Source: Pseudomonas sp. LFM046 (GTDB lineage: Bacteria; Pseudomonadota; Gammaproteobacteria; Pseudomonadales; Pseudomonadaceae). From it: a stretch of DNA of 64,000 nucleotides. Positions 16,274 to 21,442 of the stretch are shown one piece after another. The stretch is from assembly GCF_000949385.2 (NCBI RefSeq), contig NZ_JYKO02000001.1, positions 3,150,648 to 3,214,647 on the forward strand, read 5' to 3'. A model generated the notes under the pieces. The model saw nothing but the letters and a program-made list of their open reading frames with translations. It was not told the origin of the DNA and made no database searches. Numbering within the stretch: position 1 is the first letter of the stretch; every line of letters begins with the position of its first letter. The position numbers and the translations under genes are program-made.

Positions 16274-17299
16274 TCAGCACTGCAGCGCCGTCGACTCCCG
16301 CGCCACCAGTTCGCTGCCCACATCCACCTGCGAGTTCCACTCGCCCTCGCCACGGATGCGCTGGCACAGCAGTTCCACCGTGGCATTGGCCACCCGCTCG
16401 GCGGGAATGCGCACGCTGGTCAGCGACGGCATCGCCACCCGGGCGATGGGCAGATCACCGAAGCCGCAGATGCCCAGTTGGTCCGGCACCCGGATGCCCA
16501 GGCGCTGGCAGGTGAAGAGCGCACCGATGGCGGGCATGTCGTTGGTGAAGAAGGCGCCATCGCAGTCGATCTCGCCACGGGCAAAGCGTTGGATCACGTC
16601 CACGCCGTCGTCGATATGGGGTACGGGCGAGGTGTTCAACCGCAGCGGCTCGATGCCCAGCCCGTCCCACACCGCCTGGCGAAAACCGGCGAAACGCAGG
16701 TTTTCCCGCGCGTCGTCGTAGCCGAAGAAAGCCGGTTTGCGGTAGCCGCATTCCACCAGGTGACGCCCGGCCGCGGCGCCGGCGGCCCAGTTGGAGAAAC
16801 CCACCACCTGCCCCACCGGTTGCCGGGGTACATCGCCTTCGGGCAAGTCCCAGAGTTCGATCAGGGGAATGTCGGTGGACTGGAGCAGTTCCAGGGTTTC
16901 CGGCGCGTGATAACCATAGGCGAGGATCAGGCCGTCCAGTTGGCGGCCGAGGAAGGCCCGCAGCAGCTTGCCCTCTTCCTCCTGGGAGAATCGCGTTTCA
17001 CCGATCAGCAAGTGAAAGCCTGCCCGCGCCAGCCCCTGCTGAAGGACTTCGATGGTGGTGGCGAGGATGGGGTTGGTGATGGTGGTGATCAGCGCACCGA
17101 TGATGCCGCTGCGCCGGGTCACCAATTGGCTGGCGGCCAGGTTGGGCACATAGCCCAGTTCGCGCACCGCCTGCTCGACCTTCTGCCGGGTCTGCTCCGA
17201 GACCATGTCCGGCTTGGACAGGGCGCGGGATACCGTCATCCCGGAAACTCCGGCCAGCCGGGCGACATCCTGCAGGGTGGGTTTGCTCTTGGTGGACAT
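16274..17299 (-). CDS. LacI-family transcriptional regulator (GntR-like)
   Basis: A 341-residue LacI/GalR repressor. The helix-turn-helix is LQDVARLAGVSGMTVSRALS followed by the hinge helix region ELGYVPNLAASQLVTRRSG, and the rest is a type I periplasmic-binding fold. The sequence resembles gluconate-operon repressors of Pseudomonas, but no gluconate genes are adjacent here. It is downstream of the ThDP-dependent decarboxylase on the same strand, separated by 209 bp that hold a REP element. Target and inducer remain open. Confidence 0.85.
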   Translation of the reverse strand: MSTKSKPTLQDVARLAGVSGMTVSRALSKPDMVSEQTRQKVEQAVRELGYVPNLAASQLVTRRSGIIGALITTITNPILATTIEVLQQGLARAGFHLLIGETRFSQEEEGKLLRAFLGRQLDGLILAYGYHAPETLELLQSTDIPLIELWDLPEGDVPRQPVGQVVGFSNWAAGAAAGRHLVECGYRKPAFFGYDDARENLRFAGFRQAVWDGLGIEPLRLNTSPVPHIDDGVDVIQRFARGEIDCDGAFFTNDMPAIGALFTCQRLGIRVPDQLGICGFGDLPIARVAMPSLTSVRIPAERVANATVELLCQRIRGEGEWNSQVDVGSELVARESTALQC

Positions 17300-17508: not shown

Positions 17509-19119
17509 TTACTGCAGGAACTCCGCGTGCTCCCACACCTCGATCACAGTCGGGCGGTCAGCCTTTGCGGCTGTCTTCAGCAGCTCGGCCAGATGTTCCA
17601 GGCTCTCGGCCTTCTCGGCATTGCAGCCGAAGGCGCGGGCCAGGCCCTGGAAGTCCGGGGTGTAGATGTCGACGCCGATGGTGGGAATGTCACGGTTCTT
17701 CATGTAGCGCTTGATCTCGCCGTAACCGCTGTTGTTCCACAGCAGCACGATGATGGGCGCGCCGGCTTCCACGGCGGAGGCCAGTTCCGGCAGGGTGAAC
17801 TGGATGCCACCGTCGCCGATCAGGGCAATCACCGGGCGTTCCGGGGCAGCCAGCTTGGCGCCCACGGCGGCCGGCAGCCCGTAGCCGAGGGTGCCGTAGC
17901 CGGTGGCGGAGTTGAACCAGCTGCGGGGGCGCGTGGCTTCGAACAGGTGGTTGCCGGAGTACACGGGTTGGGTGGAGTCGCCGGCGACGATCAGGTCCGG
18001 CAGGGTCTGCTGGAGAGTTTCCAGCACCTTGCGCTGGCCGTTCCAGGATTCCGGCCACTGGGCATCCAGTTGCTCACGGACGGCGGCGGCGCGCTTGGAG
18101 CCCGCGCTGTCTGCGCTGAAGGCGGCACCGGCGCCCACGGCATCGGCCAGGGCGGCCAGGGCCTTGCGGGCATCGCTGAGGATGGCCAGGTCAGCCGGGT
18201 AATTGCGGTTCAACTGCTCAGGATCGATGTCGACGCGGATCAACGGGCTTTCGATGCGGAAGTTGCCATCGAACACCACGTCATAGTCGGTCTCGCCCAG
18301 CTCGGTGCCGATGGCCAGGATCAGGTCGGACTCCAGCACCATCTGGCGCACCGGCACCCAGGCCTGGTTGCAGCCCAGTGCCAGCGGGTGGCCCTTGGGC
18401 AGCACGCCCTTGGCGTTGATGGTGTAGGCAGTCGGGGCATCCAGGGCTTCCACCAGGCGCTGGGCCTCGGCGCCGGCGTCGGCACAGCCGCCACCCAGCA
18501 GCACCAGCGGGCGCTTGGCCGCCTTGAGCATCCCGGCAGCGCGGGCGATGGCGTCGGCGCACGGGGCCGGACGGCTCGGCTGCGCGCCCAGCTTGCGGCT
18601 CACGTGGTCCGCCGGGGCGGTGATCACGTCAATCGGGATCTCGATGTGCACCGGGCGCGGACGGGAGCCGTTGAACACGGCGAAGGCGCGGGACAGCACT
18701 TCCGGCAGCTCGTCGGGGCGCATCAGGGTGTGGCTGAAGGCGGCGACGCCGGAGACCAGATTGCGCTGGGAGGGCAGCTCATGGAGGCGGCCGCCGCCCA
18801 TGCCCAGTTGCTCGGTGTTGTTGACGCTGGAGATCACCAGCATGGGGATGGAATCGGCGTAGGCCTGGCCCATGGCGGTGGTGATGTTGGTCATGCCCGG
18901 ACCGGTGATGATGAAGCACACGCCCGGTTTGCCGGAAACACGGGCATAGCCGTCGGCCATGAAGCCGGCGCCCTGCTCGTGGCGCGGCGTCACGTGACGG
19001 ATGCGGGTGTTGGGCAGGCCGCGATACAGCTCGACCGTGTGCACACCAGGGATACCGAACACGGTATCCACGCCAAAGCCTTCCAGCAGCTCAACCAGCA
19101 GCTCTCCGCAGGTCAACAT
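17509..19119 (-). CDS. ThDP-dependent enzyme, 5-guanidino-2-oxopentanoate decarboxylase-like
   Basis: A 536-residue thiamine-diphosphate enzyme of the acetolactate synthase/pyruvate decarboxylase family. The catalytic Glu region is RHEQGAGFMADGYARVSGKPG, and the ThDP/Mg motif is IGDGGIQFTLPEL through NNSGYGEIKRYM. The N-terminus (CGELLVELLEGFGVDTVFGIPGV, of which I cite part) resembles proteins annotated as AruI, which decarboxylates 2-ketoarginine in the arginine transaminase pathway. The partner aminotransferase AruH is not in the window, so the assignment is by resemblance only; an acetolactate synthase-like or other 2-oxo acid decarboxylase is possible. The start at 19119 follows a strong GGAGG; 14 extra upstream codons are unlikely. 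Confidence 0.7.
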   Translation of the reverse strand: MLTCGELLVELLEGFGVDTVFGIPGVHTVELYRGLPNTRIRHVTPRHEQGAGFMADGYARVSGKPGVCFIITGPGMTNITTAMGQAYADSIPMLVISSVNNTEQLGMGGGRLHELPSQRNLVSGVAAFSHTLMRPDELPEVLSRAFAVFNGSRPRPVHIEIPIDVITAPADHVSRKLGAQPSRPAPCADAIARAAGMLKAAKRPLVLLGGGCADAGAEAQRLVEALDAPTAYTINAKGVLPKGHPLALGCNQAWVPVRQMVLESDLILAIGTELGETDYDVVFDGNFRIESPLIRVDIDPEQLNRNYPADLAILSDARKALAALADAVGAGAAFSADSAGSKRAAAVREQLDAQWPESWNGQRKVLETLQQTLPDLIVAGDSTQPVYSGNHLFEATRPRSWFNSATGYGTLGYGLPAAVGAKLAAPERPVIALIGDGGIQFTLPELASAVEAGAPIIVLLWNNSGYGEIKRYMKNRDIPTIGVDIYTPDFQGLARAFGCNAEKAESLEHLAELLKTAAKADRPTVIEVWEHAEFLQ

Positions 19120-19242
19120 GGGCAGTCCTCCAAAGGAAATCAGGTTTCGAATGGCGGGCACTCTAACATGGCGATGTTAGCGTTAACATCACTTTTGTCG
19201 GAATTGTCTGACAGGGTCTTTCTGCTGAGGTGGAAACTGGGT

Positions 19243-19289: not shown

Positions 19290-20870
<1,581 letters not shown>

Positions 20871-20916
20871 GCTGGGCTCCTGGTTTCGATCTTGGCGCCC
20901 AGGAGACAGAAGGAAA

Positions 20917-20939
20917 AAACCCGCCTCGAGGGCGGGTTT
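20917..20939 (-). terminator. attenuator terminator upstream of ilvA
   Basis: On the minus strand the hairpin AAACCCGCC, loop CTCGA, GGCGGGTTT is followed by more T (six in a row in total). It lies 47 bp before the ilvA start, so it would stop transcription before the gene. Its 5' arm can instead pair with GGCGGGTT at the end of the leader peptide gene (20957-20964), which gives the antiterminator. Confidence 0.85.
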
Positions 20940-20954
20940 CTGTTTGGTCGTCGG

Positions 20955-21020
20955 CTAACCCGCCACTGCTGGAATGGCGGTAATAATCGAGGGGCCGGAC
21001 AACCAAGGGAATTGATTCAT
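20955..21020 (-). CDS. ilvA leader peptide (putative, 21 residues)
   Basis: A short ORF runs from ATG at 21020 to TAG at 20957-20955. It encodes 21 residues, among them the run Ser-Ile-Ile-Thr-Ala-Ile, plus single Leu and Val codons. The Ile codons sit just ahead of a hairpin CCGCCA/TGGCGG (20980-20975 with 20965-20960) inside the ORF, and the stop codon lies in the second arm. That arm (GGCGGGTT) can pair with the downstream terminator arm. Stalling at Ile codons would free the second arm, form the antiterminator and let ilvA be read. The ATG has no Shine-Dalgarno sequence; the promoter predicted just upstream would start the transcript at or near the ATG. Function is inferred from arrangement. 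Confidence 0.75.
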   Translation of the reverse strand: MNQFPWLSGPSIITAIPAVAG

Positions 21021-21027
21021 GGCGGGC

Positions 21028-21057
21028 AATCTAGAGGGGCGGAGTCCTTCAGGTCAA
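21028..21057 (-). promoter_or_regulatory. promoter of the ilvA leader
   Basis: On the minus strand, TTGACC (21057-21052) is separated by 18 bp from TAGATT (21033-21028). The leader ATG begins 7 bases after the -10 hexamer, so the start site would be at or next to the A of ATG and the transcript would be leaderless. Confidence 0.65.
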
Positions 21058-21092
21058 GCGGCAATTTCGGATAGGCGAAAAGAATTCATCCT

Positions 21093-21284
21093 TCAGACGT
21101 GATCCCGGACCACCCGCAATTCGGCGGCATCCTGGTTCATCCGCTGGATCACATTGAACAACTGCTCCTTCAGGGCCTGGTCGCCGATGCGGTCGGCGGC
21201 GCGCATCACGGCAATGGCAGCCGCTTCGTTGTTCATGGCCACTGCATCCAGGGTCTTGCGAAAGTTTCTTACGGTACGCGTCAC
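21093..21284 (-). CDS. small hypothetical protein, 63 residues
   Basis: No named family recognised. The product is mostly helical in composition (TLDAVAMNNEAAAIAVMRAADRIGDQALKEQLF contains regular Ala/Leu/Gln heptads; only part is cited as a motif), charged, with no signal peptide or membrane segment. A GTG start at 21284 has a good GGAAGGACC ribosome binding site, which supports a real gene. It is read toward ilvA but a new promoter for the ilvA leader follows, so it is likely a separate unit. It is divergent from mltA. Confidence 0.65.
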   Translation of the reverse strand: MTRTVRNFRKTLDAVAMNNEAAAIAVMRAADRIGDQALKEQLFNVIQRMNQDAAELRVVRDHV

Positions 21285-21442
21285 GACTGGGGTCCTTCCT
21301 TAAGCTGCGAACACCCTATTGGATAATTATTTCCTTTTGATTTCATCGACTTGGATCAACGCATCCGTCCGACGAAATTGACGTCGCCCCGGTCATTCAC
21401 CAAGCTACCCCGCTTTGAATCACTCACCAGGAACACCACGAC

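Follow-up and report, generated by a model that had tools for sequence, protein, structure and literature searches.

A Probable Isoleucine-Responsive Attenuator Upstream of a Second ilvA Paralogue in Pseudomonas and Its Correspondence to the Rfam RNA P9

Introduction

A 64,000-nt stretch of the Pseudomonas sp. LFM046 genome (the window) carries an ilvA gene preceded by a short open reading frame (ORF) with clustered isoleucine codons and by a terminator. The locus raises the question of whether these elements form an attenuator, which amino acid it would sense, and which genes it would control. In the enterobacterial ilvGMEDA, ilvBN, and thr attenuators, a short ORF carrying end-product codons precedes alternative antiterminator and terminator structures. 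Leaders of the ilvL type have runs of Ile, Val, and Leu codons before the ilv operon, and thrL is the leader upstream of thrA. Rfam also lists an RNA named P9 (RF00624), which is reported to lie before threonine dehydratase genes and to have no known function.

Results

The minus strand, which carries all window features below, reads from 21057 to 20870 as follows: a sigma-70-type promoter and, 7 nt on, the AUG of a 21-codon ORF, then complementary segments and an intrinsic terminator; the final T of the terminator U-run (20914) is 43 nt upstream of the ilvA start codon. The leader ORF (MNQFPWLSGPSIITAIPAVAG, 20955–21020) contains S-I-I-T-A-I and ends with TAG (20957–20955), with tandem Ile codons 12 and 13 (ATT ATT) at 20982–20987 and a third, codon 16, at 20975–20973. 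Segment 1 (CCGCCATT, 20973–20980), delimited by folding and covariation, pairs with positions 20967–20960 of segment 2 (AGTGGCGGGTT, 20957–20967), the core of this 1:2 hairpin being CCGCCA (20980–20975) and TGGCGG (20965–20960). Segment 2 can alternatively pair through GGCGGGTT (20964–20957) with segment 3 (AACCCGCC, 20938–20931), giving the antiterminator 2:3, and the other partner of segment 3 is segment 4, in the intrinsic terminator 3:4 (20914–20941, −17.0 kcal/mol; arms AAACCCGCC, 20939–20931, and GGCGGGTTT, 20925–20917; six-T run, 20919–20914). The ORF and the 1:2, 2:3, and 3:4 pairings had been proposed in the original prediction, and direct reading found each of them in place, including the overlap of the stop codon with segment 2, which amounts to one base. 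Clustered Ile codons in an upstream short ORF (IITAI), mutually exclusive 2:3 and 3:4 pairings plus 1:2, and an intrinsic terminator with a U-run before the structural gene are features expected of an attenuator; Ile codons being 3 of 21 was counted against that reading. The four segments of a classical attenuator, as predicted, are present, but the design is larger, with an outer stem and a 4:5 pairing described below and probably no 5′ UTR.

The downstream gene, ilvA (19290–20870, ATG at 20870), scores above the NCBIfam threshold for biosynthetic threonine ammonia-lyase, and its 526-aa product has PALP and threonine-dehydratase C-terminal (regulatory) domains. Beyond it lie a 5-guanidino-2-oxopentanoate decarboxylase-like gene (17509–19161) and a LacI-type regulator gene (16274–17299). 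Upstream of the promoter is a 63-codon ORF with a GTG start (21093–21284), for which no Pfam or NCBIfam match was found.

The leader stood out from chance in several ways. Rfam RF00624, "Pseudomonas sRNA P9", matched 20916–20990 with 78.4 bits against a gathering score of 43 (E = 4.3e-15). The 107-nt leader folded as a single strand at −44.4 kcal/mol versus −28.2 ± 3.5 for shuffles (z = −4.7), and the terminator hairpin gave z = −4.4. A pattern of the core plus segment 2 occurred once in the window and in 0/100 dinucleotide shuffles, weak evidence given that the pattern was derived from the same sequence. The energy of the 2:3 pairing alone was unremarkable in the window (z = −1.5), so its support comes from conservation.

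The predicted −35 hexamer (TTGACC, 21052–21057) and −10 hexamer (TAGATT, 21028–21033) are separated by an 18-nt spacer and end 7 nt before the leader AUG, which puts the predicted +1 at the AUG itself or 1 nt upstream. This was the single promoter-like site in 20800–21300 (shuffle mean 0.1); a terminator scan that gave a plus-strand site alone was set aside. The 83 leaders were scanned with approximate hexamer weights and no positional preference, and distances from another scan that favored AUGs close to a promoter were not used. Among these 83, the best sigma-70 promoter ended 6 (27 leaders), 7 (36), 8 (11), 9 (1), or 10 (1) nt 5′ of the AUG in 76, and the leader ORF is for this reason probably leaderless, without a 5′ UTR. 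All but L019, L059, L086, and L087, which fail at 5%, beat 95% of shuffles (72/76). The best promoter was not near the AUG in the other seven (L080–L083, L085, L100, L101); by eye, most of these share a TGCTAG that resembles a −10 without a −35.

P9 exceeded the Rfam cut-off in all 18 of the genomes from the genus, 97/248 of the family, and 3/274 of the class; the tallies at E ≤ 0.001 (105 for the family and 15 for the class) contain weak non-members, so 97/248 is the figure used. At E ≤ 0.001, 143 of the 248 family genomes had no P9 match (145 with model R1, described below). The above-cut-off family matches span 6 of 19 genera, and a below-cut-off leader, L085, represents a seventh. From the genus, class, and family matches, 83 members were extracted as the best-scoring loci and a hand-picked spread of the remainder, a sample of the family matches that is not exhaustive; 80 are from Pseudomonadaceae. 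Seven weak matches below the Rfam cut-off (L088–L090, L102–L105) were excluded from the 80 for having no Ile-core leader. Also excluded were L022–L034, weak model matches showing no leader ORF with an Ile core, L116–L124, weak class-level matches of which L118 and L121–L124 were read individually and the other four are places already among L022–L034, and L145–L150, L152, and L153, which showed no Ile-core leader; L151, before thrA, was retained.

Conservation of the ORF and of the paired segments was the test on which the original prediction had staked itself, and both the frame and the Ile core are kept in 80/80 Pseudomonadaceae leaders. Relative to the P9 start, the AUG lies at −33 (n = 2), −30 (n = 62), −27 (n = 15), or −24 (n = 1), all multiples of three; leader starts were restricted to ATG, so the universal ATG itself carries no evidential weight. 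The core I-[IM]-[TA]-x-[IV] takes the form IITAI in 62 leaders, IITTI in 7, IMTAI in 6, and IITTV in 2, with three singletons. Of 55 distinct leaders sharing the most frequent start, 0 have a stop within codons 2–10 in the ORF frame, versus 17 and 6 in the other frames. Ile is encoded by ATT at 229 of 258 leader positions versus 14 of 117 in six window CDS. No third-position bias was found in the N-terminal codons 2–10, which points to selection on the frame and the Ile codons and not on the peptide sequence.

The same attenuator might respond to another amino acid, such as Thr, the IlvA substrate, or to general translation speed. Thr comes next after the Ile pair in 79/80 Pseudomonadaceae leaders (IIT or IMT) and occurs somewhere in 136/161 leaders, and model R1 also retrieved three thrL–thrA-type leaders (L141, L144, and L151, with 38.4, 33.8, and 27.0 bits). 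However, Ile alone, the start Met aside, is present in 161/161 leaders, in a set that required an Ile-Ile, Ile-Met, or Met-Ile pair. Among the matches listed, Thr is found in the last seven residues of 9/62 kinase leaders, the commonest ending being RIIIIP, and the ileS targets described below fit Ile. A signal other than Ile is unlikely in our judgment. The window leader, with one Leu, one Val, and no runs of either, and with a decarboxylase-like gene next after ilvA, is not of the ilvL type, and with ilvA downstream it is not of the thrL type.

The stems were compared in alignment A1, which comprises 48 non-redundant leaders; L049 and L054 were omitted for repeat-like DNA 3′ of the terminator. 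Jointly, 1:2, 3:4, and the Shine-Dalgarno hairpin had 89.5% paired cells, against 42–50% in slid controls, and 23 double-change cells versus 7.1 ± 2.3 when shuffled (0/500). The antiterminator 2:3 was paired in 90.4% of cells, showed no covariation, and was not distinguished from swapped partners (1202/5000, 22 thinned leaders). Compensatory changes, which had been suggested as a check on the stems, are present in 1:2 and 3:4 but not in 2:3, which is kept yet nearly invariant. An outer stem, 0:0′, first visible in the minimum free energy (MFE) fold of the window, pairs the first half of the ORF (0, leader codons 5–9, 20994–21006) with the spacer between segments 2 and 3 (0′, 20944–20955). In the ilvA group, the native outer stem reached −13.75 kcal/mol versus −9.44 for swapped and −7.39 for shuffled partners, and over 144 members the test against swapped partners gave 0/2000. 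The 1:2 hairpin likewise gave 0/2000 over 78 members; it was not significant within the kinase group alone (312/2000). In a thinned set of 22 leaders with identity below 70% (7 DUF4440, 9 kinase, 3 ilvA, 2 ileS, 1 GNAT), native pairs beat swapped ones for 0:0′ (0/5000), 4:5 (0/5000), and 1:2 (2/5000); related sequences are not strictly independent in such permutation tests, which thinning lessens and does not remove. The corresponding 3:4 figure (0/5000) was circular, the arms having been chosen for pairing, and was discarded. L019, L133, and L136, whose terminators were mis-parsed, were left out of the 4:5, 5:6, and thinned tests.

These results bear on a further alternative, in which the terminator simply belongs to the small ORF lying upstream (21284–21093) and the leader ORF arose by chance. 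That 63-codon ORF does lie on the same strand and has no Pfam match, but a promoter-like site separates it from the leader, and the leader ORF, the promoter spacing, and the stems are all conserved, leaving this alternative with a negligible probability. Frame conservation together with covariation ruled out the plain-terminator and chance-ORF readings.

The end of the terminator loop and the 3′ arm (segment 4 in its pairing with 5; GAGGCGGG, 20920–20927) are complementary to an element just beyond the U-run (segment 5; TCTGTCTC, 20903–20910). The end of segment 5 alternatively pairs with the Shine-Dalgarno region in the 5:6 hairpin (CTCCTGG, 20905–20899, with CCAGGAG, 20883–20877; overall 20877–20905), which covers the ilvA Shine-Dalgarno. 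In A1, 4:5 was 92.4% paired versus 41–62% in slid controls, with six U-A for C-G replacements, all at one pair. It exceeded shuffles in 2/5 measures, at 1/500 for paired cells and 0/500 for double-change cells, but not in the other three (271, 500, and 198 of 500). Over 126 distinct members, native energies averaged −16.90 versus −13.90 swapped and −8.89 shuffled (0/2000). Within the ilvA group the test gave 1270/2000 when the final three bases of segment 3 were left out and 2/2000 when they were included, the region having been widened after the first result. The 5:6 hairpin, with 81.5% of cells paired in A1, gave 0/2000 against swapped partners over 134 members but did not reach significance in the ilvA (717/2000) or DUF4440 (107/2000) group taken singly. 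In the window, its energy was no better than that of shuffles (z = −0.8).

In models of the antiterminated state for 143 members, predicted Shine-Dalgarno opening rose in 46, changed little in 87, and fell in 10; in the window it was unchanged (0.20/0.20). When segment 1 was masked and 2:3 enforced, 4:5 formed in the window model. With segment 1 masked, the MFE structure was still the terminator state (−39.0 vs −36.1 kcal/mol, a gap of 2.9); since this state is energetically favored, the switch must be kinetic, set by the order of synthesis. The re-pairing of segments 4 and 5 makes a layer of translational control via the Shine-Dalgarno possible, a weaker case than that for attenuation in view of these models. 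In L049 and L054, a repeat-like insertion lies between the attenuator and ilvA and should detach ilvA from that layer.

Control could also be mainly translational, exerted by the Shine-Dalgarno hairpin beneath a leaky terminator. The pairing of 5:6 in A1 and the excess of 4:5 over swapped partners favor this, but at least five T lie in the 9 nt after the terminator stem in 74/80 of the members from Pseudomonadaceae and in 64/77 of the rest (the low-T L052 and L108 look mis-parsed), and 5:6 is not significant in the ilvA group itself. We regard mainly translational control as improbable. The terminator hairpin is present and the U-run lost (TAATCAGCA) in L096 and L107, possibly translational or dead variants, and the U-run is likewise absent from L085.

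The target genes were then considered. The ilvA search covered 28 chosen genomes, with leader coordinates matched by hand. All 17 genomes with the element before ilvA or DUF4440–ilvA had another above-cut-off ilvA elsewhere, and all 11 with the element before other genes had one ilvA above the cut-off. The window genome has a second full-length ilvA (L302; G000 C1, 176227–177726), and P9 matches this genome once, at the window ilvA, leaving the other full-length copy without P9. In 9/17 genomes, the linked ilvA matched the 499-position profile only over approximately its first 320 positions. Across 70 linked-ilvA loci, 30 end 280–299 aa past a conserved motif (catalytic part only), L043 ends earlier, 25 extend at least 350 aa past the motif, and 14 leave the fetched stretch first. 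The copies without the C-terminal regulatory domain are L046, L048, L049, L052–L061, L064, L066, L067, L070, L073–L076, L091–L093, L095–L097, L106, L107, and L110. Judged from these matches, the attenuated ilvA is a spare second paralogue, lacking the regulatory domain in about half of the decidable loci; the window copy retains it.

The original prediction named a lone ilvA as the target, which holds in the window; in relatives, DUF4440 (accompanied by ilvA or not), P-loop kinase, ileS, and GNAT genes are also found in first place. Of the 80 Pseudomonadaceae loci, 57 begin with ilvA, 13 with DUF4440 then ilvA (L068 being classed here), 7 with DUF4440 then a P-loop kinase, and 3 with DUF4440 as the only recognised gene. 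A DUF4440/SnoaL-like gene repeatedly comes first behind the attenuator (L039, 2126–2542; L037, 925–1329; L036; L080–L087), and in L039 it overlaps ilvA (ATGA). Model R1, built on A1, was used to find further copies. The 25 distant matches kept, which consist of 3 class P9 matches and 22 others (2 + 20), stand before a P-loop kinase (12), DUF4440 (4), ileS (3), thrA (3), another P-loop kinase (2), and GNAT (1). A search with a pattern derived from these distant matches gave, among the matches listed, 80 loci, of which 64 precede a kinase, 1 ileS (L184, Vibrio sonorensis), and 15 no recognised gene; among these 15, a leader ending IIIIP or IITIIP was present in 4 and absent in 11. Kinase carriers among the matches listed included Vibrio, Enterovibrio, Photobacterium, Pseudoalteromonas, Shewanella, Marinomonas, Endozoicomonas, Marinobacter, Terasakiella, and Mariprofundus. 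The P-loop kinase is approximately 170 aa long and mostly lies under a leader ending RIIIIP (L126, L128, L129, L132, L134, L137–L140, L143, and 64 of L154–L233); for the one sequence tested, matches to PDB sequences were weak. At phylum level, R1 matched 34/398 genomes at E ≤ 0.001, overlapping the earlier sets, and few of these were read. By eye, L311, from another family, has an Ile leader before an apparent threonine dehydratase.

Rfam's own P9 model scored above the cut-off on 6 of 12 loci tested (L130 and L131, ileS; L201, kinase; L115, L036, and L037, DUF4440) and below it on L125, L132, L154, L160, L181, and L218. Common descent of the P9-type elements before different genes is likely. 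Targets in Ile synthesis or charging, as expected for an Ile attenuator, are ilvA and, in relatives, ileS; DUF4440, the kinases, and GNAT are uncharacterised. The targets fit an Ile signal, since ilvA comes first or after DUF4440 in 70/80 Pseudomonadaceae loci and ileS lies behind the element in 3/25 distant and 1/80 pattern matches listed.

P9 could act mainly as a trans-acting sRNA, with the short ORF and the ilvA neighborhood secondary, as its Rfam naming implies. There is precedent in Sinorhizobium meliloti, where the terminated leader rnTrpL acts in trans (PMC7298713). Conservation, however, tracks the ORF frame, the Ile codons, and the alternative stems, and the 4:5 complementarity takes in mRNA sequence beyond the terminator. 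The element is followed immediately by a recognised gene in 80/80 Pseudomonadaceae, 25/25 distant, and 65/80 pattern matches listed, and 11 of the 15 listed pattern loci without such a gene also have no P9-type leader. A mainly trans-acting role is quite unlikely as a result.

Discussion

Our findings indicate that a second ilvA paralogue is very probably controlled here by a ribosome-mediated, Ile-responsive transcription attenuator, whose terminated leader transcript would be the "P9 sRNA". The parts, their conservation, and the covariation of 0:0′, 1:2, 3:4, and 4:5 are established at the sequence level; from them we infer the leaderless start, the stalling and read-through, and a role for 4:5. 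Transcription would start at the leader AUG, and the ORF would be translated as a leaderless message. When Ile-tRNA is charged, the ribosome would reach the stop codon and cover segment 2, so that 3:4 forms and transcription terminates. In an untranslated leader, 0:0′ and 1:2 would sequester segment 2, with 3:4 again leading to termination. When Ile is short, the ribosome would stall at the Ile codons, open 0:0′, and cover segment 1, leaving segment 2 free to take segment 3 while the polymerase continues into ilvA. The freed segment 4 could then pair with 5 and may expose the Shine-Dalgarno. The classical model fits the position of Ile codons 12 and 13 just before segment 1 and of codon 16 within it.

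This attenuator reading would supply a mechanism for an RNA named in Rfam merely as an sRNA. It predicts Ile-starvation control of a spare threonine deaminase whose feedback domain is often lost, allostery being swapped for attenuation, and it links a set of uncharacterised genes with an Ile sensor. The design is testable as well: the attenuator is probably leaderless and may carry a second lock acting on translation, a combination not found in the papers searched. More tentatively, and with doubts that outweigh our confidence, we propose that P9-type RNAs are one old, mobile, leaderless Ile sensor with six paired segments, acting on termination (2:3 vs 3:4) and translation (4:5 vs 5:6). Such a sensor would mark out a regulon responding to uncharged tRNA-Ile, in which the uncharacterised DUF4440, P-loop kinase (more than one family), and GNAT genes would be hitherto unrecognised parts of the Ile/IleRS stress response. 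If so, the regulon might respond, for example, to IleRS inhibitors.

The novelty suspected in the original prediction has to be divided: the element was already in Rfam, as an sRNA, and attenuation of ilvA in Pseudomonas was found in none of the papers searched. For these bacteria, our literature search returned no Ile attenuator of ilvA or ileS, no mechanism for P9, and no design combining an outer stem with 4:5. Earlier descriptions are possible in each case, with key older papers, the original P9 report, and older attenuator surveys lying outside the search.

Rfam P9 is the same element as the window leader, matched over its full length (1–74). It is typed there as an sRNA (type Gene), whereas we read it as a cis leader, and the Rfam match starts just before the Ile codons and ends in the U-run, omitting the promoter, the start codon, and the outer 5′ strand. 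With the enterobacterial ilvGMEDA, ilvBN, and thr leaders, the window element shares the common design of a short ORF of end-product codons and an antiterminator competing with a terminator. It differs from them in its single paralogous ilvA, its probably leaderless ORF, its outer stem formed by the first half of the ORF, and a terminator arm that can re-pair with an element contacting the Shine-Dalgarno. In bacilli, His leader peptides before hisS paralogues, with predicted attenuation, are described in PMC2965389, whose main text has 0 occurrences of "isoleucine". These leaders target an aminoacyl-tRNA synthetase gene or paralogue, like ileS here, for another amino acid and in another phylum. 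The trpL attenuator RNA of S. meliloti begins at the leader-ORF ATG (PMC7298713) and is leaderless, as is probable here, but its signal is Trp, its target trpE(G), and its host an alphaproteobacterium. The mechanism class is already known, and leaderless attenuator ORFs have a precedent in S. meliloti trpL.
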